64,000 nucleotides of DNA from Phormidesmis priestleyi BC1401. Lineage in GTDB: Bacteria; Cyanobacteriota; Cyanobacteriia; Leptolyngbyales; Leptolyngbyaceae. The translations under genes were made by a program, and so were the position numbers. The stretch covers positions 1 through 64,000 of the forward strand of contig NZ_LXYR01000021.1 of NCBI RefSeq assembly GCF_001650195.1, read 5' to 3'. The notes under the pieces were generated by a model. That model worked only from the letters and a program-made list of their open reading frames with translations. It was not told the origin of the DNA and made no database searches. The first letter of the stretch is position 1. The number at the start of each line of letters is the position of its first letter. This document shows positions 529 to 37,629 of the stretch, piece after piece.

Positions 529-2544
529 CTAAACTTGCCCGATCGCAAACCAAGCCCGCAACACTTCCGCCACCGTCCACGCTTGAGCAAAACATCCGCG
601 TGGAGTCATCGGCGCATCGCCATCAAAAATCTCGCTCAAACTACCGACCCCGTGATTGGTGAGATGGTTTGCCATCGGCTCTAAAAACTCACGCGCCTTA
701 GCCGGATTGTTATACACGCGCAGATGAGCGATCGCAAACGCCCCCATCAGCCAACCCCAAGCCGTGCCTTGATGATAAGCTCCATCTCGTTGAAGCTGAG
801 AACCACCATAGTGTCCCTGATAGCTAGGATGCGAGGGGGAAAGCGATCGTAGCCCATAAGACGTGAGCAGCGATCGTGAACAGGCATCGACGACGCTTTT
901 TTGTTGAGCTGTCGTCAACGGACTTTCGGGCAGAGACACCGCAAAAATCTGATTGGGACGCAGCGCTGCCTCAGTGCCATCGGGGCTGTCTAGCACATCG
1001 TAACAATAGCCCTCAGACTCGTTCCAAAATCGGGAAAACCTTGCTAGCACTCGATCTGCCATCGCATCATATTCTCGATAGGGTCTGCCGATTTGACGGG
1101 CAAATTTCGCCATAATTCGCAGAGCGTTGTACCACAGAGCATTGATTTCGACAGGCTTGCCGATGCGTGGAGTCACCACCCAATCGCCCACTTTGCTATC
1201 CATCCAGGTGAGTTGCGCTCCGGCTTCTCCAGCGTAAAGCAGCCCGTCTGCTGGATCGAGATGAATGTGATAGCGAGTACCGCGACAGTGCCAATCGATG
1301 ATTTCTGCCAGAGCGGGAAAGATATCGTGCAGCAAGTCTCGATCGTCCGTCGCGTTGTAGTAAGACTGAATCGCTAGAAAATACCACAAGGTTGCATCGA
1401 CGGTATTGTATTCTGGGGTTTCACCCACATCGGGAAAGCGGTTTGGCAGCATTCCTTGATCGATGTGCAGTGCGTAGGTCTGAATGATCGATCGAGCAAT
1501 CTCTGGGCGACCCGTTGTTAGCGTCAATCCCGGTAGACTAATCATCGTGTCTCGCCCCCAGTCGCCGAACCAGGGATATCCCGCTACGATCGTTTTCCCA
1601 TTTGGGTTGTTGGGCTGCGATCGGTTCACGATGAATTGATCGGCGGCTAACACTAAGTGTCTGATCCAAGTTGGGGCACCATCGGTTTGTTTACCCTGGT
1701 CAATTTTCCAGCGATCGAGCAGTCTTTGTTCGTGGGCGTGTTGAGCGCGTAGAGCCGTCTCACCATCCAAATTAGGTGTGGCATCGGTGCTAGCGATGAA
1801 GGTCACTGATTCGCCCGGATGCAGCGTCGCTTCAAAGGTGGCAGCGTGAAGATGATCTTCTCGATCGTTTAACCCGCGATCGCGCTCAACCGCTAATTCA
1901 TAGTCATAATACCAATTGTGCATTGGGGTTGCCTTTGCGCCCCGACACAAAAGATAAAACGGCGTGGCTTCTGGGTAAGCAGAGATGCAAACGCCTTTTC
2001 CGATCGAGTCCACGCTCATGTGCCAGTTGTTGCCCTGAGTATCGCTGTGATAGTCGCGATAGTTGACCATTGCATTCAGCGTCAGCGTCAAGGGTTGAGC
2101 GGCTCGCTGCAAATGATATTGCACATAAGTGGTGTTGGCTCCTTGCTGCATCCAGACGCGCTTTTCGAGCAAGGCATCGCCACATGCAAACCGCCACACC
2201 GGAACCGTTCCTTCTAAAAAAAACCGCTCAATATGGTGATAGCCGTTTGAGCAGACAAAGCCGCCGACCCAACGGTTGGTGCTGAGAGAATAGAACTCTT
2301 TGCCATAACGAACGCTTTCATCGAGCTTTGTGACCAGAAGCGTGCGCTGTTGAGGCGGTTTAAGCGCAGCGATGAGTAACCCGTGATAGCGACGAGTCAA
2401 AAGCCCTGTGATCGTGCCTGCTGCATATCCTCCAATGCCGTTGGTGACGAGCCATTCTCGTGTTTCCGCAGCCGCGAGGGTGCCGCAGATCTCCCGTCCA
2501 AAGTCGATGCTCATCACAAAAAGCCTTTCCGGTAGCGTCTTCAT
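529..2544 (-). CDS. Glycogen debranching enzyme (amylo-alpha-1,6-glucosidase, archaeal/bacterial type)
   Basis: Predicted cytoplasmic alpha-1,6-glucosidase of glycogen breakdown. The N-terminal half (about residues 15-300) resembles the GDE N-terminal domain, with the characteristic start ETREWLVTNGIGGYA and LLTRRYHGLL. The C-terminal (alpha/alpha)6 GDE_C domain contains GYPWFGDWGRDT near residues 321-333 and WMDSKVGDW...PVEINALWYNAL near 446-475, both hallmarks of the family. Length (671 aa) is normal. ATG at 2544 has an AGGG upstream; the internal ATG at 2514 (MSIDFGREICG) matches the usual family N-terminus and is an equally good start. It stands alone, transcribed away from the lipoate-ligase gene, and its 3' end abuts the IS630 remnant. 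Confidence 0.9.
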   Translation of the reverse strand: MKTLPERLFVMSIDFGREICGTLAAAETREWLVTNGIGGYAAGTITGLLTRRYHGLLIAALKPPQQRTLLVTKLDESVRYGKEFYSLSTNRWVGGFVCSNGYHHIERFFLEGTVPVWRFACGDALLEKRVWMQQGANTTYVQYHLQRAAQPLTLTLNAMVNYRDYHSDTQGNNWHMSVDSIGKGVCISAYPEATPFYLLCRGAKATPMHNWYYDYELAVERDRGLNDREDHLHAATFEATLHPGESVTFIASTDATPNLDGETALRAQHAHEQRLLDRWKIDQGKQTDGAPTWIRHLVLAADQFIVNRSQPNNPNGKTIVAGYPWFGDWGRDTMISLPGLTLTTGRPEIARSIIQTYALHIDQGMLPNRFPDVGETPEYNTVDATLWYFLAIQSYYNATDDRDLLHDIFPALAEIIDWHCRGTRYHIHLDPADGLLYAGEAGAQLTWMDSKVGDWVVTPRIGKPVEINALWYNALRIMAKFARQIGRPYREYDAMADRVLARFSRFWNESEGYCYDVLDSPDGTEAALRPNQIFAVSLPESPLTTAQQKSVVDACSRSLLTSYGLRSLSPSHPSYQGHYGGSQLQRDGAYHQGTAWGWLMGAFAIAHLRVYNNPAKAREFLEPMANHLTNHGVGSLSEIFDGDAPMTPRGCFAQAWTVAEVLRAWFAIGQV

Positions 2545-2632
2545 TTACCCTGATATAGGGTCAAAGGGCAAGGCTTTGCAGCAATTTTTAGCGAGAAGCT
2601 ATGAAAAACAGAAGTCTTAGTCCCGCCCTTTG

Positions 2633-3358
2633 TCAATTTAACAGGGTGTAAATCGTCCGCCACTCGGATTCCGTCAGCGATCGTGTCTCAAATTCAACCC
2701 CAAAACAGTCTGTTGCCGATCGGGTTAGAGCGTCTACGAGCGCTCTAATCAGCCCGTCGCCTTTGAGGAACGGGAGGGTTGGAATCAGCGACTCTGAGCC
2801 GAACACGCGATCGAATAATTCTCTATCTGGTTCTAATCGCATTGAGCCGTGTTGCAAAATTGCATCTCCCTTTCGCAATTGAGCACTGCCAATTAGCTTT
2901 GCGCCATCAGACATGACTAAATCTGCAACCGTTGCCGTCCCAAAACAGTTGGGATTTTGGATGTAGCTGCGTCCTGCTTGCCCGTAATGGAGATCAACGT
3001 TGAGCGATCGCCACCCCGCAATCAAAAATTCACAGATGGTTTGATATGCCGGCATTCGATTGCCAGACAACCCCGATGTGATCACGGCGTAAGTCAAATC
3101 TCCCTGATGCAAAACGGCGCGTCCTCCACTCGGTCGGCGCACTAGTTCGATCGGGTCACCCTGCCAGATTAGCTGCTTCCACTCATCGGGATATCGGTGC
3201 TGATGATAGCCCAACGACAGGGCAACAGGCGACCACGTATAGAAGCGCAACGTGGGTGGATGATTGCCTGAACAATGCTGGTCTAAAAGCCACTGATCAA
3301 TCGCCATCTGCACCCGACCCGATGCCTGCATTAGAGGAATGAGTCGCCAAGTTTTCAT
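2633..3358 (-). CDS. Lipoate-protein ligase A-like (BPL/LPL catalytic domain) protein
   Basis: A 241-aa BPL/LplA-fold protein, likely transferring lipoyl/octanoyl groups to carrier-protein lysines. The diagnostic RRPSGGRAVLHQGDLTYAV block is at about residues 72-90, preceded by SLGYHQ. The LIGSAQ segment and HGSMRLE are also typical of cyanobacterial lipoate ligase family members. The open frame runs further upstream to 3562, but that extension is translated repeat DNA, so the ATG at 3358 (MKTWRLIPL) is chosen. A dispersed GC-rich miniature repeat sits immediately upstream (3386-3523), so promoter signals probably overlap it. Substrate preference (lipoate, octanoate or another acyl donor) cannot be told from sequence. 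Confidence 0.85.
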   Translation of the reverse strand: MKTWRLIPLMQASGRVQMAIDQWLLDQHCSGNHPPTLRFYTWSPVALSLGYHQHRYPDEWKQLIWQGDPIELVRRPSGGRAVLHQGDLTYAVITSGLSGNRMPAYQTICEFLIAGWRSLNVDLHYGQAGRSYIQNPNCFGTATVADLVMSDGAKLIGSAQLRKGDAILQHGSMRLEPDRELFDRVFGSESLIPTLPFLKGDGLIRALVDALTRSATDCFGVEFETRSLTESEWRTIYTLLN

Positions 3359-3385
3359 AGGATGGATTTCGATCGTAAAGAATAA

Positions 3386-3523
3386 CAGGCGCTGCTGAAG
3401 TGCCCTCACCCCCAATCCCTCTCCCTGGGGAGAGGAGAGCCAGAACTCTTGTCCCCTCTCCCCAGGAAGAGGGCTAGGGTGAGGGTAAAATCTGTGCTTC
3501 ATAGATCGACTCAGCAACGCCTG
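3386..3523 (-). repeat. Dispersed miniature palindromic repeat, copy 1 (end type I, reversed)
   Basis: About 138 bp with imperfect terminal inverted repeats: CAGGCGCTGCTGAAG on the left and the reverse complement CAGGCGTTGCTGAG on the right. The core is the CCCTCACCC...CTCTCC / GGGAGAGG palindrome shared with five other copies in this window. It is inserted just upstream of the lipoate-ligase-like gene. It has no coding capacity of its own, although open frames run through it by chance. Confidence 0.85.
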
Positions 3524-3761
3524 ATTTTTATCGATTGTATAAATGAATTGCAGGTCACGCACTATTGTCGTTGCCGTTGCGTTTGACTTTCGTAAACTCT
3601 TCTGGTTAGGGAGTCAACGATCGTTTTTAACCCTTATGAATCGTTTTGTAAACCTCAACAACAATTTTGTAGACCCAAACATTGTTTGGCAAGTTTTAAC
3701 AGGGGTTAATGTACCTTGTGTAGAGCAGATTTTGTTGTATTTAGCGTGGCACGATCGCTGC

Positions 3762-4961
3762 TTATTGCGCTTCAGCCATGGGAAGTTGTTCTGGCGAAAT
3801 CTTCAACGCTACTAAGCGATCGTCCCGTTTCACCGTCACGTCTAGCTGACCGTTAACCCCCACCTGATCGACTAACCGCTGGAGTATATTAACTTTATTC
3901 ATAGGTTGTTGATTGACTTCTGAAATTACGTCGCCTGCCCGCAGCCCCGCTTTTGCCGCTGGAGTGCCCTTGCCTACCTGCACGACTAAGATTCCGTTGT
4001 CTTCCTCAACTCGAATCTTGCTGTTGGGCGCTTGATTCACAAACTGCTTTACCTGCGGAGTCAGTGCCACCATCTGCACCCCAATATAAGGATGTTGTAC
4101 CGTTCCGGTTGCGATCAACTGCCGAGCCACACTTTGAACTGTATTGATCGGAATCGCAAATCCAAGCCCTTGAGTGCCGCGAATAATCGCCGTGTTCACG
4201 CCAATCACTTCCCCTTGAGCATTCAGCAGAGGTCCGCCAGAATTGCCGGGGTTAATTGCCGCATCGGTTTGAAGGAACCCCACGCGCTTGTCAGGTACGC
4301 CAATATCAGCGCTCGATCGCTCTGTGCCGCTAATCACGCCTACCGTAACCGTTTCTTGCAGCCCTAGCGGATTGCCGATTGCGATCGCCCACTGCCCCTG
4401 ACGCACCTTGTCAGAATCGCCCACACTCACAGCAGGCAGGTTATCGCCTTGCACCTCAATCACCGCTACATCGGTCACGAGGTCTTTGCCCAATACCTTC
4501 CCCTCTAAAATGCGCCCGTCTTGAAACGACACTGTGACCATATCAGCGTTATCGACGACGTGGGCGTTGGTAATGATTTGCCCCATCGAATTTGCTGAAC
4601 TGATCACAAATCCAGAGCCGATGCCGCGCAAAACCGATTGAGGCGATCCCCCTTGAGGTCTGCCTAAAAAAGGTCTGAGCGCAGCCGGAATATCGCCGCC
4701 CATTGTGCGAGACACGTTGACCTGAACGACTGCCCCTTCGACTCTCTCAACTACTGCGGTGACAAAGTTATTAGAGTCAGAACTTGGAAACAAAGAGTTA
4801 ACCCCTGCTGCCTGAGCAGTGTTCGACCCAGCACCGATAAAAAGAATACTGACGATCGCCAGAAAAGTAACAACTTGAGTCCCTAATTTTCGTAAAAAAG
4901 AATGCATTGAAGGCGGCTGATTTGACACTTGAAGGTCAAGGCGGCATCGTGATTGAGTCAT
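3762..4961 (-). CDS. HtrA/Deg family serine protease with PDZ domain
   Basis: Envelope (periplasmic or lumenal) trypsin-like protease for protein quality control. After a basic N-terminus, a hydrophobic stretch (about residues 27-45) followed by NTAQAAG looks like a signal peptide. The catalytic triad is visible: H134 in TNAHVVD, D164 in VTDVAVIEV, S241 in NPGNSGGPL. One PDZ domain occupies about residues 290-385 (AAKAGLRAGDVISEVN). At 399 aa it is a typical cyanobacterial HhoA/HhoB/HtrA paralogue; which one cannot be decided. The ATG at 4961 has an AGGA about 12 nt upstream; ATG at 4907 (MHSFLRKLG) is an alternative start closer to the signal peptide. Confidence 0.93.
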   Translation of the reverse strand: MTQSRCRLDLQVSNQPPSMHSFLRKLGTQVVTFLAIVSILFIGAGSNTAQAAGVNSLFPSSDSNNFVTAVVERVEGAVVQVNVSRTMGGDIPAALRPFLGRPQGGSPQSVLRGIGSGFVISSANSMGQIITNAHVVDNADMVTVSFQDGRILEGKVLGKDLVTDVAVIEVQGDNLPAVSVGDSDKVRQGQWAIAIGNPLGLQETVTVGVISGTERSSADIGVPDKRVGFLQTDAAINPGNSGGPLLNAQGEVIGVNTAIIRGTQGLGFAIPINTVQSVARQLIATGTVQHPYIGVQMVALTPQVKQFVNQAPNSKIRVEEDNGILVVQVGKGTPAAKAGLRAGDVISEVNQQPMNKVNILQRLVDQVGVNGQLDVTVKRDDRLVALKISPEQLPMAEAQ

Positions 4962-5106
4962 AAATTGAATTCCTGTGCTGAGATGTCTAGATGAGAGTGG
5001 CTCTGATCAACTGCTATATGGTAGCGATCGCACAGAAAATTTCTTCAATCCTACGGCTGAATCCTGCCTCTTTGTCTAGCGGTGTACTAATCGACACTAC
5101 GCACAA

Positions 5107-5262
5107 GATTGCTCTATGAAAAACAGATTTTGCCCTCACCCTAGCCCTCTCCCAAGAGGAGAGGGAACAAGATTTCTAGCTCCCCTCTCCTTGAGAGAGG
5201 TTGGCGAGGGCTTTGTCCCACTTCGTGAGGAGGGCAATATATTTGCCTTCAGCAGCGCCCAG
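5107..5262 (+). repeat. Dispersed miniature palindromic repeat, copy 2
   Basis: Same GC-rich core as the other copies (CCCTCACCCTAGCCCTCTCC ... GGTTGGCGAGGGCTT ... GTGAGGAGGGC). The right end, CTTCAGCAGCGCCCAG, matches end type I; the left end is decayed and its boundary is approximate. It stops 3 bp short of the msrB stop codon, so it forms the msrB 3' flank and could act as a transcription terminator. Confidence 0.75.
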
Positions 5263-5265
5263 ATT

Positions 5266-5673
5266 TTAGTTAGGCTCGAATTTGAGGGAGACTCCGTTCA
5301 TGCAATAGCGCTGTCTCGTTGGAGCCGGACCGTCGTTAAAGACGTGCCCTAAATGCCCGCCACAGCGACGGCAGTGGACTTCAACACGGGTCATAAAGAG
5401 TGACTTGTCGGTTGTGGTCTCGATCGCGCCTTCAAGGGGTGCAAAAAAACTGGGCCATCCAGTGCCGCTATCAAACTTGGTGTCTGAGGTGAAGAGGGGC
5501 AACCCACACCCGCCACACTCGTAAGTGCCTGGGTCATATTGTTTGTCTAGTGGGCTGGTGCGAGCGCGTTCGGTTCCGTGCTTCCGCAAAACTTGAAACT
5601 GTTCGGGCGTAAGCAGCTTTTTCCATTCATCGTCTGTTTTTTTGATTTCAAACTCACTGTTTGAGGTTGTCAT
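5266..5673 (-). CDS. msrB: Peptide-methionine (R)-S-oxide reductase MsrB
   Basis: Repairs methionine-R-sulfoxide in proteins. The 135-aa frame holds one complete MsrB domain: WKKLLTPEQFQVLRKHGTE near the N-terminus; two zinc-binding CxxC pairs (CGGC, CRRC); GTGWPSF; the HVEVHCRR-like and GGHLGHVF signatures; and the catalytic Cys in RYCMNGVSLKF near the C-terminus (the usual following Ser is Gly here). No signal peptide, so probably cytoplasmic. It is flanked on both sides by miniature repeats (5107-5262 and 5778-5931). ATG at 5673. Confidence 0.95.
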   Translation of the reverse strand: MTTSNSEFEIKKTDDEWKKLLTPEQFQVLRKHGTERARTSPLDKQYDPGTYECGGCGLPLFTSDTKFDSGTGWPSFFAPLEGAIETTTDKSLFMTRVEVHCRRCGGHLGHVFNDGPAPTRQRYCMNGVSLKFEPN

Positions 5674-5777
5674 CTTGGTTGCGCTCCGGCTAAATCTTTG
5701 GCTCTCTAACCATCATTTTAGAGGGTTCTGATAGGTCTTGCGACTTTGGATAACCGAACACTTTTTAGGCTGTCCAA

Positions 5778-5931
5778 TAGACCTCATGCACAAATACTTC
5801 GCCCTCACTCTAGCTCTCTCCCCAAGGAGAGGGAACAGGAGGTTCTAGCTCCTTTCTCTCTAGAGAGAAGGGTTGGCGAGGGCTTGCCCCACTGCGTGAG
5901 GAGGGCTGTCCAGATTCACGCAGGAAATCTA
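5778..5931 (+). repeat. Dispersed miniature palindromic repeat, copy 3 (end type II)
   Basis: Core as in the other copies, but the ends differ. The left end TAGACCTCATGCAC and the right end (reverse complement TAGATTTCCTGCGTGAAT) form an imperfect terminal inverted repeat of the TAGAC..CCTG type, shared only with the copy at 24276-24448. It fills most of the gap between msrB and the TPR-glycosyltransferase gene and probably overlaps that gene's promoter. Confidence 0.8.
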
Positions 5932-5996
5932 ATTAAAATCTTTGATGCAAATGGGTTAGGTTGACGCAAAATGATCAACAGTTTGTGCAGGTTGCG

Positions 5997-8882
5997 ATGT
6001 CGATGAAAGAGGCTTCTGAGCAGTTGACCTTGGCAAAAAACGCCTTTCAAGCGGAGGATTGGGACACCGCCGAGCAAATCTGTCTGCAAATCATCCGACA
6101 AGACTCGCAGCAGGTCGAAGCGTTGGAGATGTTGGGCATGGTCTATTGTCAAGTGGGGCAATTTGACCGCGCGATCGAGCACTATCAGTCTTTTCTCGCT
6201 CTCACGCCTGATCATGCGTCTGCTCGCTACAATTTAGGCACAGCGTTCTCAAAAATAGAGCAGATGGAGGCGGCGATCGAGCATTATCAAGCCGCGATCG
6301 CTCTCGACTCAACGTTCTATCAAAGTCACTACAATCTCGGTAATGCTTATCTCGCCCAACACCACAATGAGGAGGCGATCGCGGCATATCGTCAAGCGTT
6401 GAGATTGAGGCCTGACCATCGCCAATCGCTGCATAATTTAGGGGCGTGTCTGCAAAGTTTAGACCAGTTTGAGGCAGCGGCGATCGCCTATCAGCAAGCC
6501 TTAGCGCTCAAATCCGACCACGCGATCGCGCACAACAGCTTAGGCGAAATTTTGCGAAAACTGGGGCGAGTGGATGACGCGATCGAGCATCTCAAACGGG
6601 CGATCGCGATTGACCCCGACTTTGCAGAAGCACACAACAATTTAGGAGTCGCCTACTACTATCGAGGGCAGTTTGAAGAGGCAGACGATTGCTATCAGAA
6701 TGCGCTGAGACTCGATTCTAACTATGCAAATGCTCAACTCAATCATGGGTTTTTATTGCTGCTAAAAGGCGATTTGCAAACGGGATTTCGACACTATGAG
6801 CAACGCTGGACAGGACAATCTCTAACGCCGCCGTCGTTTCCTCAGCCTCAGTGGGATGGCGCTAATCTCAACGGCAAAACAATTTTTCTATGTCACGAAC
6901 AAGGCTTTGGAGATACGATTCAATTTATTCGCTATGCGCCATTGGTTGCAGAACGGGGCGGACGGGTTATCGTCGGGTGTTCAGCCCCATTGATGCGATT
7001 GCTTAAAACGGCTCCTGGTATTGATCAGCTTGTTCTCGAAGGTGAGCCACTTCCGCCGTTTGATTGCTATGCTCTGTTGCTGAGTTTGCCCTATCTACTG
7101 GGCACGACTTTAGACGCAATCCCGGCGGCGATTCCTTATCTCTCGGCTCCTGATCTTCCGAACCCTAATGCACGTCTAAAAGTCGGGATTGTCTGGGGTG
7201 GAAATTCTAAAAATGGAAACGATCGCGATCGCTCTATCTCGCTCACCGATTTGCTGCCGCTGTTAAGCTTATCTGGAGTAGAATTTTACAGTTTGCAGAA
7301 AGACAGATCTGAGGAGTTGCAGCAGTTTCGAGAGATGCACCCGCTGATCGCGATCGTCGATTTAGACGAGCAGCTTGAAGACTTTGCAGACACGGCAGCG
7401 GCGATCGCTCCGCTCGATTTAATGATCAGCGTCGATACATCGGTTGCCCATTTAGCCGGAGCAATGGGCAAATCGGTCTGGATTTTGCTGTGTGCTGTTC
7501 CTGATTGGCGATGGTTTCTCGATCGGGCTGATAGTCCCTGGTATCCTACGGCTCAACTTTTTCGACAGCATTGCCTTAGCGATTGGTCTAGCGTCACTCA
7601 ATCTGTTGTAGATCGATTGTCGAAGATGATTGAGAACTCATCTCAAAAGTTTACCTCTAGTTCAAATCAAAGTAGTAATTTAGGAATTAATAAACCGCTC
7701 AAAGCTAAGAAAATTGGCATTGGTTTTCCGATCGGTGGAAGTCTCGGCTGGGGCGTTTATGGATTAAATCTAGCATTACAGTTACTAAAAATTCCCCATC
7801 TAGAACCTGTACCATTGATAGAGATTTCCGCATTGTCAGAGTTGAATCCGGTGTTGCGATCGCGGCTCAACTCAGTGCTTCACTATCCCCAACAAATTCA
7901 AACTCTTCTGGCTCAGAGCCCTGACAAGATATTGAACACAAACCTTCTCATACTCAAGCCTTTAGGAAATCACTTTGCAACCAGTGACGACAATCATCGC
8001 ATTCAGGGATCTCATAATGTTGGCGTTATTTTCTCAGAAGACACGCAGTTTTTGCCGCACGAAATCGAGCAAGCGAAACGCTACGATCGCATCATTGCCG
8101 GGTCTGACTGGAATGCAGAAATCTTGCGAAGCTATGGACTGACTCAAGTTGAAACTGTTCAGCAGGGAATCGATCCGACCTTGTTTCATCCGGCTTCCAA
8201 GTCGGGACTGCTGCACGATCGCTTCGTCATTTTTTCGGGCGGCAAGTTAGAGCATCGCAAAGGTCAAGACATTGTGGTGGCTGCCTTCCGCATTTTTCGA
8301 TCACGTCACCCTGAAGCGCTGCTGTTGATGGCATGGCACAACCACTGGCTGCACACCATGACGGGACTCGATCGCGCCAAACACGTCATCGGATTGCCCA
8401 CCGTTGATGCTCGTGGGCAGTTGCAGATCACTCGCTGGCTGACCAAAAATGGTATTCCTGCCGACGCGGTGTTAGATGTGGGCAGGATTCCGAATGCGAT
8501 CGCGCCTCAAATTCTCCGAGAAGCTGATGTCGCCGTGTTTCCTAATCGTGCCGAAGGTGGCACCAATTTAGTTGCAATGGAGAGCCTTGCTTGCGGCATT
8601 CCCACCATTCTCTCAGCCAACACAGGACATTTAGACTTGATTCAGCCCGATCGCTGCTATCCTCTCCGCACTCAACGTCAAGTGGTTAGAAGCGAACACT
8701 ATCACGGCACTGAGGGCTGGGGAGAATCGGATGTTGAGGAAGTCGTCGAGCAGTTAGAGCAGGTGTACCGTGATCGCTCAGAAGCCCAGCGTCGAGGAAC
8801 TGCTGCCGCACAGTTTATGCAAAATTGGACTTGGGAGATTCAGGTGCAGCGATGTCTCAAGGTTCTAGCAGATTTTCTTTAG
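5997..8882 (+). CDS. TPR-repeat protein fused to two glycosyltransferase-like domains
   Basis: Large cytoplasmic protein (961 aa from this start). Residues about 10-265 are seven or more tandem tetratricopeptide repeats ([20 protein letters not shown]-type units), a protein-interaction scaffold. Residues about 280-550 resemble the heptosyltransferase/GT9-like domain often following TPRs in cyanobacteria ([32 protein letters not shown]). Residues about 580-955 are a GT4/GT1-like domain with [13 protein letters not shown] and an [17 protein letters not shown] acceptor/nucleotide motif. A likely role is glycan or polysaccharide assembly; substrate unknown. Start is uncertain: ATG 5997 chosen, in-frame TTG at 5961 possible. 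Its last 18 nt overlap the convergent GGDEF gene. Confidence 0.85.
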
Positions 8883-27811: not shown

Positions 27812-28290
27812 GTGAATCATCTGTGACTTCGATCGAGCAACCCCCGCTCTTATTAGTGATTGAAGACAGCAATGAAGATTTTGAGGCATTCCAACGCTAT
27901 GTTCGTCGATCGCCGTTAACGATCCCGATTTATCACTGTGTAGATGGCGATGACGCGCTGGCATTTCTGGATCGCACCGGTCGCTACTCTGATCCCCAAA
28001 GCGCCCCGCGTCCAGGGCTGATTTTGCTCGATCTCAACTTACCCGGAACGGACGGACGAGAAGTGTTGCGAAAAATTAAACAAGATGAGATTCTGAAGGT
28101 AATTCCGGTCGTTGTTTTTACGACTTCCAACAACCCCAAAGATATTGAAGCGTGTTATCGACAGGGTGTTAACAGCTATATTGTCAAACCGATGGATTTT
28201 AATCGATTAAAGCATAGTATCCAAATCTTAATCGACTACTGGTTTGATACGACGATTCTCCCTACCAGCGTGATAGATCAGCGCCCATGA
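27808..28290 (+). CDS. Rcp1-like single-domain response regulator
   Basis: 160-aa receiver with no output domain, typical of the regulators paired with cyanobacterial phytochromes. Acidic pocket VIEDSNED, phospho-acceptor D75 in LILLDLNLPGTDG, switch TTSNNPKD and conserved Lys in YIVKPMDF. The start overlaps the phytochrome stop (ATGA) and the stop overlaps the next kinase (ATGA), so all three are translationally coupled. With the phytochrome broken, its phosphodonor may now be the hybrid kinase downstream. Confidence 0.93.
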   Translation: MSESSVTSIEQPPLLLVIEDSNEDFEAFQRYVRRSPLTIPIYHCVDGDDALAFLDRTGRYSDPQSAPRPGLILLDLNLPGTDGREVLRKIKQDEILKVIPVVVFTTSNNPKDIEACYRQGVNSYIVKPMDFNRLKHSIQILIDYWFDTTILPTSVIDQRP

Positions 28291-31943: not shown

Positions 31944-31976
31944 CTTACCTACTGCCTCCACCAATAATTTGGAGCA

Positions 31977-32065
31977 GCCCAACGTTGCCCATCACCCGCC
32001 GCTAGCAACCTTTGCTTCATAGTCGATCAACTTTCGGCGATCGGTGTGCGTGGGCGTTATTAAAC
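31977..32065 (+). repeat. attC-like imperfect palindrome 1 (upstream of bioA)
   Basis: Begins GCCCAAC (fits the integron R'' consensus RYYYAAC) and ends GCGTTATTAAAC. Inner arms GCCCA/TGGGC and CGCCG/CGGCG pair imperfectly across an 89-nt span. The right half is nearly identical to that of the element at 38557-38647 (TCAACTTTYGGCGATCG). The right core box is a poor GTTRRRY match. Confidence 0.55.
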
Positions 32066-32107
32066 TGCAACGTCTGAACATCCTTGTCAAATCAGTCCTC
32101 ACAGTCC

Positions 32108-33391
32108 ATGCAGTCTTTACAGCAACTCCTTGATTTTGATCGACTACATGTTTGGCACCCCTATGCCGCCATGCCCAGTCTTCTACCCGTGTTTCCAGTA
32201 GAGTCAGCGCAGGGCGTACATATTCAATTGATGGATGGTCGATCGCTGATCGATGGCATCTCTTCTTGGTGGACTTGTATTCACGGTTATAACCATCCCC
32301 GCTTAAACCAAGCTGCCCACGCGCAAATCGATCGGATGTCACACGTCATGTTTGGTGGTCTGACCCACCAGCCAGCAGTGGATTTGGCACAGAAATTGAT
32401 TGCCATAACGCCAGAGGCACTCCAGCAGGTCTTTTTTTGCGACTCTGGCTCAGTAGCGGTAGAGGTAGCCATGAAAATGGCGGTGCAGTATTGGTACAAT
32501 CGCGGGTTGCCGCAGAAGCAGCGTTTTCTCACTGTTCGTCATGGCTATCATGGGGACACCTTTGCCGCAATGTCGGTCTGCGACCCGGTGAATGGGATGC
32601 ACCATCTTTTTCGTAATCTGCTGACCCAGCAATATTTCGCCGAGGCACCGCAGATTTCGTTCGATCGAGACTGGCAGGAACGAGATATTGACAGCTTTGC
32701 GGCACTGCTAGCCGCTCACCACGACCAAATCGCAGCAGCCATTTTGGAGCCAGTCGTGCAAAATGCTGGGGGGATGCGATTTTATCATCCAGACTATGTG
32801 CGACAAGCCAAGGCGTTATGTGAAAAATATAATGTCCTACTGATTTTAGATGAGATTGCTACGGGGTTTGGTCGCACGGGCAAAATGTTTGCCTGTGAAC
32901 ATTCGACGGTATGTCCAGACATTCTGTGTGTAGGCAAGGCGCTGACTGGCGGGTTTATGTCCCTGGCAGCCACGCTGACGACGCAGGAGATTAGTGAGAG
33001 TTTTGCAGCAGGTGAGGCAGGGGTCTTTATGCACGGTCCAACGTTTATGGCAAATCCCTTAGCCTGTGCGGTGTCTTTAGAAAATTTGGTCTTGCTGGAA
33101 AGTTATGATTGGCAATCCACGATCCGAGCGATCGCATCCCAGCTCAAAGCTGAGTTAGAACCTTGCCGGAGTCTGGCGGCAGTGAAGGACGTGCGGGTGT
33201 TAGGGGCGATCGGGGTAGTGGAGCTGCACGAGCCAGTGGATATGCAAGTGATACAGCCGCGCTTTGTAGAAGAGGGGGTCTGGTTACGTCCGTTTGGGCG
33301 ACTGATCTATACAATGCCGCCTTACATTATTCAACCCTCAGAACTCACAGCCATTACTCGTGCTATTTACAAAATTGTTGCTCAGCTTTAG
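32108..33391 (+). CDS. bioA: Adenosylmethionine-8-amino-7-oxononanoate aminotransferase
   Basis: PLP-dependent step of biotin synthesis (KAPA to DAPA), 427 aa from ATG 32108 (an in-frame TTG at 32084 is possible). BioA-specific N-terminus VWHPYAAMP and SSWWTCIHGYNHP; LDEIATGFGRTG with the PLP Asp; Schiff-base Lys about residue 277 in VGKALTGGFMSLAAT; HGPTFMANPLACA. Complete. No other biotin gene is adjacent. It sits between two attC-like palindromes (31977-32065 and 33472-33556), the downstream one 80 bp after its stop, the arrangement expected of an integron-type cassette. Confidence 0.94.
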   Translation: MQSLQQLLDFDRLHVWHPYAAMPSLLPVFPVESAQGVHIQLMDGRSLIDGISSWWTCIHGYNHPRLNQAAHAQIDRMSHVMFGGLTHQPAVDLAQKLIAITPEALQQVFFCDSGSVAVEVAMKMAVQYWYNRGLPQKQRFLTVRHGYHGDTFAAMSVCDPVNGMHHLFRNLLTQQYFAEAPQISFDRDWQERDIDSFAALLAAHHDQIAAAILEPVVQNAGGMRFYHPDYVRQAKALCEKYNVLLILDEIATGFGRTGKMFACEHSTVCPDILCVGKALTGGFMSLAATLTTQEISESFAAGEAGVFMHGPTFMANPLACAVSLENLVLLESYDWQSTIRAIASQLKAELEPCRSLAAVKDVRVLGAIGVVELHEPVDMQVIQPRFVEEGVWLRPFGRLIYTMPPYIIQPSELTAITRAIYKIVAQL

Positions 33392-33471
33392 CTTGACAGG
33401 TGCATTGAATTTAATACGCCTGTTCGAGGTCGAGCTTGACTTTCAAGCTCTCAGTTACGGTAGTTGCCACA

Positions 33472-33556
33472 GCCTAACAAGTCGTTGGAGCAGCGAATCA
33501 AGTCTCCCTGTCTACGTTTCAAGGCTACTTTTCGCCGCTCAACTCAATCGTTATGA
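33472..33556 (+). repeat. attC-like imperfect palindrome 2 (downstream of bioA)
   Basis: R''-like GCCTAAC (perfect RYYYAAC) at 33472 and R'-like GTTATGA at 33550. The arms GTTGGAGCAGCGA and (reverse complement) GTTGAGCGGCGA pair with one unpaired G, the extrahelical-base arrangement of attC sites. Length 85 bp. Same extra G position as in the element at 37493. Confidence 0.65.
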
Positions 33557-33684
33557 GTACGATCGCCAACCTCATCGATTGGTTTGGATGTTACGAAGTC
33601 CAGCACAATCCTCCACTCACCCTCTTGTCTGCTCTTGCGATGCCAGCGATCGCTGCCTTAGCAGTAGAGCGGTAAGAGACAGAA

Positions 33685-33737: not shown

Positions 33738-33760
33738 ACAGTAAAAGGGCGATCGCTATC

Positions 33761-33990
33761 ATGAATGCGCGATCGACTGAAATGAGTAAGCAAACCGCAG
33801 TTTGAGAAAGCAATTTGCCTTTTTGCTTGCGGAAAACACCAAAATGAATGCGCGATCTACTGAAATGAGAAAGCAAATGGTTGAAATGAGAAAGCAATTT
33901 GTCGTTTTGCTTGCAGAAATTACTGAAATGAGAAAGCAAACAGGCAAAATGAGCAAGCAAATTGCTACTTTGCTAATTCAATCAGGATGA
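33761..33990 (+). repeat. 84-bp tandem repeat encoding a heptad-repeat peptide
   Basis: Two and a half units starting at 33761, 33844 and 33928. Units share ATGAATGCGCGATC, GAAATGAGAAAGCAA and TTTTGCTTGC. Unit 2 is 84 bp (28 codons, four heptads); unit 1 is 83 bp, one base short, which shifts its frame. From ATG 33844 the strand encodes 48 residues in strict seven-residue steps (EMRKQMV, EMRKQFV, VLLAEIT, EMRKQTG, KMSKQIA, TLLIQSG), predicting a short amphipathic coiled coil. An in-frame TTG at 33802 would give 62 residues. No function recognised; it may be a remnant. Confidence 0.6.
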
Positions 33991-34488: not shown

Positions 34489-34655
34489 AAACTTTCTGTC
34501 TATTAATTGTTACGCCGCTGGGTTATCGGTGGAGGGCAACCGAAATCTCATCTGTTAGTATTCAAAGCTAAATTGCCGATAAATTTTCGATAGAACAGTG
34601 TTTTGAATCTGACATTGGGAACAAGCGCCCCCAAATATGTTAGCGCTGTATAAAA

Positions 34656-34669
34656 AGTATAGCTATACT
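34656..34669 (+). promoter_or_regulatory. Candidate operator (14-bp perfect palindrome)
   Basis: AGTATAGCTATACT lies 38 bp upstream of the zinc-ribbon gene start and includes a TATACT that could be a -10 box. The position suits an operator, possibly for self-regulation by one of the two downstream proteins with winged-helix-like parts. Confidence 0.45.
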
Positions 34670-34707
34670 AGTAGCCAAATATTGAGAGAATTTAGGAAGA
34701 TCTGACT

Positions 34708-35877
34708 GTGCCAAACTGCCCATACTGCGATTTTCTAATTGATGAAGCCTATAACTTCTGTGTTAGCTGTGAGCAGCAAGTTAAGTGTCTGACATGTGGC
34801 AGTTATCTGATTAAAGATAAGAGCAAGTGCCTCAAATGCGGTAACTTCCTGAACACGCCTCAAACTGCTGCTACTCCCATGAATAATTTTTCATTAGAAG
34901 AGGAGCAATCGGATAGCAACTATTCAAGAAAGCTAAATCTATCTTTTACTGATAACGCGATCGATAAGGTCGCATCTGTTTTAGGTGGTTACGTTCCTTT
35001 AGTTCCACCTAAAAGTCCGAAACCCGTTGCGCAACAACAACTTGCCTTACCTTTTCTACAGACATCAGAAGAGAACGAGCAACTGGATCAATCTGAAATA
35101 ATGACTGATGAAGCTGTAGAGACCACAGCGAAAAACGTTTTAGATAATAACTCTCCCTCCGATTATTTTGAGAAAGATGGGCAGGGTTTCCTTATTTCAA
35201 ATAATCATGACTACAAAGGTAAGAATAAGAAGCTTCAGCAGCAAAGGTTTAGCATTCTTTACGTATGGGCTTACAACTCTCTTAATAGAGAACTAGTTCC
35301 TAATGATCATTTAACACAGGCTGCTCAAAGAAATGGAGTTTATGATCAGAATTATCCTACTTATCTTAAAGAAGCAGCAAATCGCTTCTTCACTAAATTG
35401 GATGGCACTTTCAAGCTTAATCCTAGCGGGCGTGCTGAACTAAGCAAGATTCATGCAGAGATGCAAGACTCGGATTTAAGCGGTTCAGAGTACTGGAATT
35501 CAACTCGGAAAAAATCCAGCCGAAGTCCTCGTGCAACAAAAGAAGATGCACAGAGAGTCGAGCAGTGGGTTCAGATGCCGTCAAAATTTGATAGCTTTGA
35601 TGTGAGAGGACTAAACACTAGGTCTGACCTTGCAATTCTTGCACTCTATGACATTACGAAAGAACTAAAGGTTGAGACTTCTGTGAAACCGTCTTTGGCA
35701 TATGAGTATCTTACTAAAAGGTACAAAACAGTTTCAATAACCAATAAAAATCTCAGTGATACGCTATCTGACAAGAGATACAAGAAATATTTTGAGCGCA
35801 CCTCTGAAGGGTTATGCTACCTCACCCAAGAATCTGAAAGCCTTGCAGAAAGCTGGATTAGCAAAGGTAGTATTTAG
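34708..35877 (+). CDS. Double zinc-ribbon protein with tandem winged-helix-like segments (unknown)
   Basis: 389 aa, GTG start at 34708. Two treble-clef/zinc-ribbon units are clear: C4-C7-C18-C21 and C27-C30-C41-C44. A low-complexity linker (about 48-165) follows. Two similar segments, about 178-255 (FSILYVWAYNSLNRELVPN ... LNPSGRAEL) and about 310-380 (DLAILALYDITKELKVE ... LTQESESL), look like a duplicated winged-helix domain, joined by a basic stretch (TRKKSSRSPRATK). This implies nucleic-acid binding. The DNA is visibly AT-richer and poorer in GATCG sites than its surroundings, suggesting transfer. Its stop is 2 bp before the HEPN-like gene. No known family recognised. Confidence 0.75.
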   Translation: MPNCPYCDFLIDEAYNFCVSCEQQVKCLTCGSYLIKDKSKCLKCGNFLNTPQTAATPMNNFSLEEEQSDSNYSRKLNLSFTDNAIDKVASVLGGYVPLVPPKSPKPVAQQQLALPFLQTSEENEQLDQSEIMTDEAVETTAKNVLDNNSPSDYFEKDGQGFLISNNHDYKGKNKKLQQQRFSILYVWAYNSLNRELVPNDHLTQAAQRNGVYDQNYPTYLKEAANRFFTKLDGTFKLNPSGRAELSKIHAEMQDSDLSGSEYWNSTRKKSSRSPRATKEDAQRVEQWVQMPSKFDSFDVRGLNTRSDLAILALYDITKELKVETSVKPSLAYEYLTKRYKTVSITNKNLSDTLSDKRYKKYFERTSEGLCYLTQESESLAESWISKGSI

Positions 35878-35879
35878 GC

Positions 35880-36653
35880 ATGAGTATTCAAAGATCCAAA
35901 CTTGAGGCGACTTTATCTACACAGTTTCCAAAAGATGTTCTGGTTGCATTACTGGATGAATATCAACATATTAAGCAACAGTTCTTTTTAAGGAGATTTC
36001 AGCCAACTGAGCTAAATGCTGCTCGTTTTAGTGAATGCGTTCTTCGCTTAATTGAGTTCTTAGACACAGGCAGTTACACAGCTTTAGGGAAGCAACTAGA
36101 CACGCAAAAAATAATAAATCGTGCTGCTAACAATACAGGCTTGCCAGAGGGTATTCGCTTCTTTATCCCTCAACTTACGAGAGTCCTTCTCGATATTAGA
36201 AATAAAAGGAATGTTGCTCATGTTGGTGGAGAAGTAGACCCCAACTATTCCGATTCTCTATTTGTATCTCATTCCGCAGATTGGATCTTAGTTGAGCTAA
36301 TACGCAACTACCACACAAACAGCATTGACGAGGCAAGAAAAATCGTTGAAAGTATTACTGAAACTAAAATTCCTGTGATAGTAGAAATTGGTAATTTTAT
36401 ACGAGTTCAAAACACAAAGCTAAAAGCTGATCAAAAAACTTTACTTATTCTTTACTATAAACAGCCGGCCAAGGTTAGCGATGCAGATTTAATGAAGTGG
36501 GTTAGATATACGAACACAAGTAGATATCGAACTGAAATACTGAAATTACTGGATGATGAAGCTCTTATCCATTATGAAAATGGTCTCTGTGTAGTTCTTC
36601 CTAAGGGCATTCTTTATGTTGAGAAAAATATCAGCCCTGAATTAATCATGTAA
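35880..36653 (+). CDS. HEPN-like / winged-helix protein, partner of the zinc-ribbon gene
   Basis: 257 aa, ATG 35880. An alpha-helical N-terminal domain (about 1-160) contains LLDIRNKRNVAHVGGEVDPN near residues 108-127, an R-x(n)-H arrangement like that of HEPN ribonuclease or HEPN-like domains. The C-terminal 65 residues (KTLLILYYKQPAKVSDADL ... ENGLCVVLPKG) read as a winged helix. Translationally adjacent (2-bp gap) to the zinc-ribbon gene, so the products likely act together. AT-rich like its partner. The HEPN reading is inference from one motif; catalytic activity is not established. Confidence 0.7.
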   Translation: MSIQRSKLEATLSTQFPKDVLVALLDEYQHIKQQFFLRRFQPTELNAARFSECVLRLIEFLDTGSYTALGKQLDTQKIINRAANNTGLPEGIRFFIPQLTRVLLDIRNKRNVAHVGGEVDPNYSDSLFVSHSADWILVELIRNYHTNSIDEARKIVESITETKIPVIVEIGNFIRVQNTKLKADQKTLLILYYKQPAKVSDADLMKWVRYTNTSRYRTEILKLLDDEALIHYENGLCVVLPKGILYVEKNISPELIM

Positions 36654-36665
36654 TCAATAAACGAT

Positions 36666-37151
36666 TTACTCACCTGCTGTATTCAAAACGTCTGAATACA
36701 GTTGAGTACTTATCCGAAAACTTGCCTGGAGCATGAGATCATCCATTATAGGTTTAACTGCCATAATTAGACTTTGGCGTTTTGCTGATAGAAGAATTCC
36801 TAGGACTCCAGTGATTCTTATTCCCAAATCTGTCGCGGCTTGTCTGCCCAGTCGCTCATCAATTAGCAATCGAGATGCTTCTACTTCGACAGCAAGTGCG
36901 ATTGCTTCAGCCTCTCCTAAATTCACACGATTTCTCAACTCACTCACCAATTCTTGATTTTGTACTGGTTGAATTCCCAGCCATATCGCCGATTGGACTG
37001 CTGTAATTACAGTTTTACCAGCCCTTTCATCCAACAGTTCCTCATAAACCGCAGTTGGAATCAGAATCATCCCATATATTTGCTGCATAAGTTCTAGCTG
37101 CCCAACCTTCGCCAAATTAGAGATTGGTGAAGTGTTACTTACGATTTTCAC
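36666..37151 (-). CDS. PIN-domain (DUF3368 type) toxin
   Basis: Predicted ribonuclease toxin, 161 aa. The start IVSNTSPISNLAKVGQLEL has the Asn variant typical of DUF3368 in place of the first PIN acid. GEAEAIALA (about 76-84) and LLIDERLGRQAA (about 93-104) supply the remaining acidic residues. Lies 2 bp downstream of the UPF0175 gene, the standard partner of this toxin type. Convergent with the HEPN-like gene, with 12 bp between stop codons. Full length. Confidence 0.9.
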   Translation of the reverse strand: MKIVSNTSPISNLAKVGQLELMQQIYGMILIPTAVYEELLDERAGKTVITAVQSAIWLGIQPVQNQELVSELRNRVNLGEAEAIALAVEVEASRLLIDERLGRQAATDLGIRITGVLGILLSAKRQSLIMAVKPIMDDLMLQASFRISTQLYSDVLNTAGE

Positions 37152-37153
37152 TA

Positions 37154-37393
37154 TCAGTCCGTTTCCTGTAAGGTCTTGAGATCTTCTTGAAACTCAGCTA
37201 CATCATAGTGGACACAGATGTCTCGATCAGCCAGTAGTTTTTGAAACTGCATTCGATGCATTCCCATCAACTCGCTAGCCTTTCCCAAACTAATTTTGTC
37301 TTGGCGAAAAAGCATAAGTACAATCTCCAAGAATAAATCGTGTTCTGATAAACCACTTGCTCTGACAAGATCGTCTGATATTACCAAACTCAT
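37154..37393 (-). CDS. UPF0175 family antitoxin
   Basis: 79 aa. DLVRASGLSEHDLFLEIVLMLFRQDKISLGKASELMGMHRMQFQKLLADR is the UPF0175 helix-turn-helix region that binds DNA and represses its own operon; the acidic C-terminus (YDVAEFQEDLKTLQ) neutralises the toxin. ATG 37393; the toxin gene follows after 2 bp. The pair lies at the right end of the AT-rich cassette, 100 bp from the attC-like palindrome at 37493. Confidence 0.9.
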   Translation of the reverse strand: MSLVISDDLVRASGLSEHDLFLEIVLMLFRQDKISLGKASELMGMHRMQFQKLLADRDICVHYDVAEFQEDLKTLQETD

Positions 37394-37492
37394 GATTATA
37401 CCCCTAGCTCTTAAATCTACTGCTTAGATCGTAGCAGCCAAAACAAGGGTAGGTTAGACTATTTTATAAGTTTAACCTTCGTAGCGGCGCGG

Positions 37493-37578
37493 CATAACAA
37501 CGCGCTGGAGCGGACGGGCGAGAGGTTCTGGCGTTGCTGCCAAGGTTATCTGCCGCCGCTCAGCTAAGCCGTTAGACA
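37493..37578 (+). repeat. attC-like imperfect palindrome 3
   Basis: Best of the four. R''-like GCATAAC (37493) and R' GTTAGAC (37572, perfect GTTRRRY). The left arm GCGCTGGAGCGGACGG pairs with the reverse complement of the right arm (AGCTGAGCGGCGG), leaving single unpaired G and A bases, as in integron attC stems. 86 bp. It marks the right end of the segment holding the zinc-ribbon/HEPN operon and the toxin-antitoxin pair. Confidence 0.7.
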
Positions 37579-37629
37579 GGATGAGTTGAAGCTACATAAG
37601 ATCTTAATATCGCTTCTATAGAAACGACA

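Follow-up and report, generated by a model that had tools for sequence, protein, structure and literature searches.

An apparently undescribed gene pair, probable HEPN and zinc-ribbon/winged-helix, on an integron-type cassette of Phormidesmis priestleyi, a putative defence or growth-arrest module

In the 64,000-nt stretch of Phormidesmis priestleyi BC1401 that we analysed (contig NZ_LXYR01000021.1, positions 1 to 64,000; hereafter the window), two adjacent genes, g1 and g2, apparently form a tightly linked, undescribed pair. Our best reading is that they belong to a known kind, the HEPN RNase modules, in a known vehicle, the integron-type cassette. Such a cassette-borne, two-component RNase module is probably defensive, and a putative switchable defence or growth-arrest role is the most likely one. 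The relevant features of the window are as follows.

31973..32069, minus strand: weaker attC-type site before bioA (covariance model E 8e-4)
32084..33391, plus strand: bioA-like aminotransferase, in an interval absent from the sister species, between attC-type sites
33468..33560, plus strand: attC-type site 3' of bioA, 5' boundary of the cassette; arms GTTG(G)AGCAG / CGCCGCTCAAC (covariance model E 1.5e-6, outside the training set)
34656..34669, no strand: 14-bp perfect palindrome AGTATAGCTATACT, 38 bp upstream of g1
34708..35877, plus strand: g1, 389-aa partner, GTG start (ORF, DZR match, Cys positions, model, Foldseek, homologues)
35880..36653, plus strand: g2, 257-aa candidate HEPN protein, ATG start (ORF, model, Foldseek, alignment, criteria of PMC3710099)
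36666..37151, minus strand: PIN-like toxin (DUF3368; PADLOC candidate PDC-S70), tail to tail with g2, as in G280 and G504
37154..37393, minus strand: UPF0175 antitoxin-like gene of the PIN pair (profile matches), as in G280 and G504
37488..37581, plus strand: attC-type site, 3' end of the cassette; arms GCTG(G)AGCGG / CCGCTCAGC (homologous sites in G504 and G280; covariation; covariance model, training member)

ORF calling placed g1 and g2 on the plus strand with a gap of 2 bp, and their G+C content (38.8%, versus 49.1% for the window) ranked 2nd of 620 among windows of the same size, in agreement with an earlier note on this DNA that had described two coupled AT-rich genes. No curated family in Pfam, NCBIfam or PADLOC named either gene, and g2 stayed without assignment in all three. 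Among the known and candidate defence families of PADLOC, there was no match for g2 and, for g1, a weak match to Cas7 alone (E 0.0018); this match is confined to the variable linker, and we rejected g1 as a Cas7/DevR relative. Nor did we find, in the literature searched, a described system with this pairing of a HEPN and a zinc-ribbon/winged-helix protein. The literature and family searches bear out the earlier note, which knew of no such system and had named assignment to a known family as an outcome that would speak against it; no known family claims the pair.

The product of g2 was modelled from eight sequences (mean pLDDT 65.5) as a helical bundle, with predicted helices at residues 18-36, 48-63, 75-83, 90-108 and 121-144; residues 11-108 and 121-144 are mostly confident helix. 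The bundle carries the motifs E52xxxR56 and R107x6H114 and is followed by a winged-helix-like region at about residues 183-250. Members of the HEPN superfamily, a trait of which is metal-independent RNase activity, are recognised by an Rx4-6H motif ending helix 3 of the bundle, mostly with N, D or H after the Arg, and by an upstream conserved acidic residue, typically in Ex3[KR] (PMC3710099). In g2, the motif is R107-NKRNVA-H114, in which R107 ends a predicted helix and H114 lies in the next loop, and it is invariant as Rx6H in 15 of 15 g2 sequences, a set that spans down to about 20% identity. The following residue is N108 in 13 of the 15 (Ser in G027 and G420), and the upstream motif reads E52-C-V-L-R56, with an invariant Glu and an Arg absent in Natronomonas and G602 only. 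Altogether, E52, R107, R110, H114, N122, D125, W135, E139 and R142 are unchanged across the set.

At the sequence level, g2 carries the HEPN signature. The HEPN-like motif pointed out earlier was upheld, with its Rx6H and invariant Glu, and where the lack of a HEPN fold would have told against the claim, a helical bundle was predicted. In Foldseek comparisons of the g2 model with the PDB, the HEPN structure 2hsb was the sole high-probability match (0.92, but with E 0.9); TT1696 and Csm6 ranked below it, and all E-values were near 1 or higher. The C-terminal winged helix, also claimed before, is plausible, but was modelled at low confidence (pLDDT 31-52).

The predicted layout of g1 comprises a double zinc ribbon (residues 4-44), a short strand-strand-helix segment (about 56-97), a variable linker and two winged helices (about 172-252 and 278-388). 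Eight cysteines, at positions 4, 7, 18, 21, 27, 30, 41 and 44, form four pairs with zinc-ribbon spacing, much as had been described; the N-terminus matched Pfam DZR below threshold (E 3e-4, 21.2 bits against a cut-off of 27.3), and the g1 of G420 scored above the cut-off for Zn_Ribbon_1. Most relatives retain the eight cysteines, and Crocosphaera L006 is down to four. For the g1 model (mean pLDDT 61.3, built from five sequences), the best PDB matches were forkhead and MarR winged helices, with Foldseek probabilities of 0.94-1.00, E-values of 0.04 or worse and a target TM up to 0.65, which suggests that the modelled fold is that of a winged helix. Both of the winged-helix-like segments previously called similar were modelled, but their mutual resemblance is weak (hhalign P 2e-4 to 3e-3). 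Foldseek gave no match with E < 0.01 for either the g1 or the g2 model, and PDB profile searches with the two proteins gave no meaningful match.

In 13 cyanobacteria and one IMG/VR contig, 14 loci altogether, g2 is intact and its partner is readable. A winged-helix-like partner lies 5' of g2 in every one of them and has the zinc-ribbon form in 11. Homologues scattered without each other, an outcome that the earlier note had set against its own proposal, were not what we saw. Outside the window, zinc-ribbon g1 followed by g2 occurs in the same order in ten loci (L002-L007, G197, G280, G463 and G420). Close pairs come from Nostoc carneum, Fortiea, Nostoc NMS9, Dendronalium, Crocosphaera, Cyanothece and the genomes G197 and G280; those of G463 and G420 are more distant, both with a zinc-ribbon g1. 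The partners of the distant g2 relatives in G027, L025 and G602 are winged-helix-like too, but of other kinds: a 206-aa protein with a C-terminal winged-helix-like region in G027, three small winged-helix-like ORFs 5' of the HEPN gene in L025 (the IMG/VR contig), and in G602 a partner related to one of the L025 ORFs (E 4e-6) and broken by two in-frame stops. On plasmid PL131 of Natronomonas pharaonis, a distant g2 relative precedes a short ORF that resembles a partner and extends into a transposase gene. Homology of the zinc-ribbon g1 to the partners in G027, L025 and Natronomonas was not demonstrable by BLAST or hhalign. We discarded a Halorubrum match covering only the C-terminal part of the Natronomonas protein.

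The pair is rare and patchily distributed. Relatives of g2 were found in 4 of 386 cyanobacterial genomes, in 2 of 42 genomes of the window's order (the window's own included) and in 4 of 293 genomes of a second order (one of them a remnant), and g2 was absent from a same-genus genome. Crocosphaera L008 has lost the middle of the pair to an internal deletion and retains the beginning of g1 and the last part of g2. Among the matches listed, phage records held no relative of g1 or g2, L025 was the sole relative on viral contigs, and plasmids held a relative of g2 in Natronomonas only and none of g1.

The window, G280 and G504 have in common an element of about 90 nt beyond the UPF0175 gene. The two arms of this element are paired save for one bulged G, and between copies both sides change at three arm pairs; paired arms and a bulged base are the anatomy of an integron attC site, and such sites are already known in cyanobacteria (PMC8352920). 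With a covariance model built from four copies, two same-strand (+) attC-type sites were found to bracket g1, g2, PIN and UPF0175 in the window. The attC-like repeats reported before could in this way be placed at 33468-33560 and 37488-37581 (covariance model and covariation), and the adjoining PIN/UPF0175 pair, also reported, at 36666-37393 (profile matches). The model found the same block likewise bracketed by two sites in G280, and three sites in G504, where the block is a remnant. Same-orientation sites with paired arms, a bulged base and flanking cargo define a cassette, and an integron-type cassette carries the pair in these three genomes. The DNA fold z-score of the 3' site was not significant, and the case for this site therefore rests on covariation and on the homologous sites; a scan with the strict attC consensus found none near the pair.

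The window genome (G000) has 26 attC-type sites with E < 1e-3, spread over contigs C28, C49, C50, C30 and C40, with five within 7.3 kb on C28. The model matched once among 13 control loci, in G060, and not at all among the remaining pair loci save for a borderline match in G027. No integron integrase above the TIGR02249 cut-off was found in the window genome, only short sub-cut-off fragments, so that its attC-type sites form a cluster without integrase. G280 has a truncated integron integrase near the block (TIGR02249, 4.5e-27) and a TIR gene upstream, and aligns continuously with the window from about 34630 to 37552 at 74%. On L017, also from G280, the stretch at 4237-6773 lies upstream of the cassette and holds the truncated integrase, then the TIR-domain gene and then an unknown gene.

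Genome G413, of the same genus, has pyrC 41 bp after a gene resembling the kinase gene at 28287 of the window; in the window itself, the interval between the kinase-like gene and pyrC is about 6.6 kb and holds bioA, g1, g2, PIN, UPF0175 and DUF6671. The bioA-like gene, whose best sister-species match is 40% identical, may be a further cassette (31973-33560). Between the 5' attC-type site and g1, at 33755-33975, we noticed 21-nt direct repeats of the ATGAGAAAGCAA type.

Six of 16 related loci lie near restriction-modification, TIR, DUF1016, OLD-like ATPase or PIN/UPF0175 genes, and most of the others have ordinary chromosomal surroundings. PADLOC-type genes occur within 5 kb in the window, G280 and G504 (PIN/UPF0175), G420 (DUF1016) and L025 (type ISP restriction enzyme); in G463, an OLD-like ATPase accompanied by DUF4276 lies slightly further off. 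The pairs of Nostoc carneum, Fortiea, Nostoc NMS9, Crocosphaera, Cyanothece and G197 have housekeeping surroundings, and within 5 kb of them neither a restriction gene nor a named defence gene was found. We counted 79 PADLOC families around the pair versus 16, mostly generic, in a control set of the same size; this excess, from a small comparison, is suggestive rather than a measure of significance; many of the 79 are models of the same few genes, and some are candidates known by association only.

Some neighbours deserve mention in their own right. The L025 locus is flanked by the type ISP enzyme and a DUF2779 gene; the row at 1007-8246 of this contig (IMGVR_UViG_3300007352_000472), comprising the type ISP enzyme, three small winged-helix-like genes, the HEPN gene and a DUF2779/Cas4-like gene, possibly constitutes a defence operon of its own. 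At 1222-3293 of L033 (G463), an OLD/AriA-like ATPase gene, with HEC-01A and AriA as best PADLOC matches, adjoins DUF4276 about 4 kb off the pair. That pyrimidine genes such as pyrC, upp and prs occur close to several of the loci looks like coincidence.

HEPN RNases are effectors common to many immune and toxin systems, and their triggering differs in each. In HEPN-MNT toxin-antitoxin modules, two genes are adjacent, one of them encoding a HEPN RNase. Like the RNases of the superfamily (PMC3710099; ApeA, AbiV, Csm6/Csx1, HEPN-MNT), g2 has an Rx4-6H ending a helix, a polar residue after the Arg, a conserved Glu in Ex3[KR] and a predicted helical bundle; unlike them, it has no family profile match and has its own C-terminal winged-helix-like region, and its partner is a zinc-ribbon/winged-helix protein instead of an MNT, ATPase or CARF protein. 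The arrangement of two adjacent genes, one HEPN, recalls the HEPN-MNT modules named in PMC3710099 and PMC12839542, but g1 shows no nucleotidyltransferase signature, has the look of a nucleic-acid-binding protein and, in some genomes with the HEPN gene preserved, is broken. By domain description, the EC042_2821 family of R-M operons likewise combines HEPN with a winged helix (wHTH) and a zinc ribbon, in a fusion that also includes an REase (PMC3710099); that, however, is one polypeptide with a nuclease domain, whereas g1 and g2 are two proteins with no REase.

As for the vehicle, attC-bracketed cargo with PIN/UPF0175 aboard resembles the integron-borne anti-phage and toxin-antitoxin cassettes cited in PMC12444791 and PMC12409362, and the truncated IntI near the same block in G280 adds to the likeness. 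The differences are that most g1-g2 relatives lie outside cassettes and that the window genome has no intact IntI. PADLOC candidate PDC-S70 (PIN/UPF0175), itself known by association, is matched by the neighbouring pair (PIN gene E 1e-62) and not by g1-g2.

We propose, tentatively, a mobile two-component module that is triggered by invasion or damage and in which g1 either restrains or directs g2, an RNase; here we infer the RNase activity of g2, a g1-g2 complex, the direction of control and the defence role. In such a mechanism, g2 would be a HEPN ribonuclease active under some condition only, recruited or switched by g1 as a fast-evolving nucleic-acid-binding partner. The likeliest trigger would be foreign nucleic acid or damage from it, and the outcome abortive infection or growth arrest. 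In the window genome, the pair shares one integron-type cassette with the PIN/UPF0175 toxin-antitoxin pair. Integron cassettes elsewhere carry anti-phage systems (Darracq, Getz, Kieffer 2025, as cited in PMC12444791 and discussed in PMC12409362), which fits the defence reading without proving it.

Of the two genes, g1 is the faster-evolving (dN/dS 0.16-0.29, versus 0.06-0.16 for g2). Strong conservation of g2 would be unusual, though possible, in a defence effector, and it suits a host regulatory or RNA-processing complex in which g1 targets transcripts or promoters and g2 is the associated RNase or binding subunit. We consider such a host role fairly unlikely: the pair has a common site beside typA in Nostoc carneum and Fortiea and another in the Crocosphaera/Cyanothece group, all at loci without defence genes, but its rare and patchy distribution, the internal deletion in L008, the remnant in G504, the cassette carriage and the relative on an archaeal plasmid speak against it. 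An unlikely alternative to both is a classical type II toxin-antitoxin system, with g2 as a toxic HEPN RNase and g1 as its neutralising, autoregulating antitoxin. Coupled genes with the DNA-binding-like partner first, the HEPN RNase signature of g2 and carriage on an integron cassette, common for toxin-antitoxin pairs, all agree with it. However, g1 is broken and g2 intact in four loci, L005 (a stop), L007 and G280 (frameshifts) and G602 (two stops), and loss of an antitoxin before its toxin is unexpected. The two frameshifts may be assembly errors, since the L007 sequence comes from a long-read unitig and the break in G280 falls within a poly-A run, and fragments of g1 could still act; taken at face value, the breaks mean that genomes tolerate g2 without a full-length g1, and they speak against g1 as a plain antitoxin. 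The upstream palindrome, moreover, is not conserved. That all four cassette genes, PIN/UPF0175 included, make up one system is very unlikely: the tail-to-tail block is kept in the window, G280 and G504, but the PADLOC scan puts the PIN family beside g2 in those three loci only, and the toxin-antitoxin pair may simply stabilise the cassette.

Returning to an RNase controlled by g1, it is conceivable, if doubtful, that the pair represents a new class of integron-stored, two-protein immune modules that range from haloarchaea to cyanobacteria and join a conserved HEPN RNase to exchangeable, rapidly evolving partners that sense nucleic acid, of the zinc-ribbon/tandem winged-helix type in one lineage and small winged-helix proteins elsewhere. 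If true, a conserved HEPN whose winged-helix partner can be swapped would offer a compact, testable case of sensor exchange. Carriage of uncharacterised putative RNase modules by cyanobacterial integron-type cassettes agrees with recent reports of integrons as an anti-phage store.

The 14-bp palindrome noted earlier is present upstream of g1, but we rejected it as a conserved operator: it is one of eight such palindromes within the window, and only its right half, TATACT, a -10-like box, is conserved in relatives, the left half not. In Crocosphaera L006 and Cyanothece L007, an inverted repeat, TGTAATAT-aaa-ATATTACA, absent from the other relatives, lies 27 bp 5' of g1 and is possibly an operator there.
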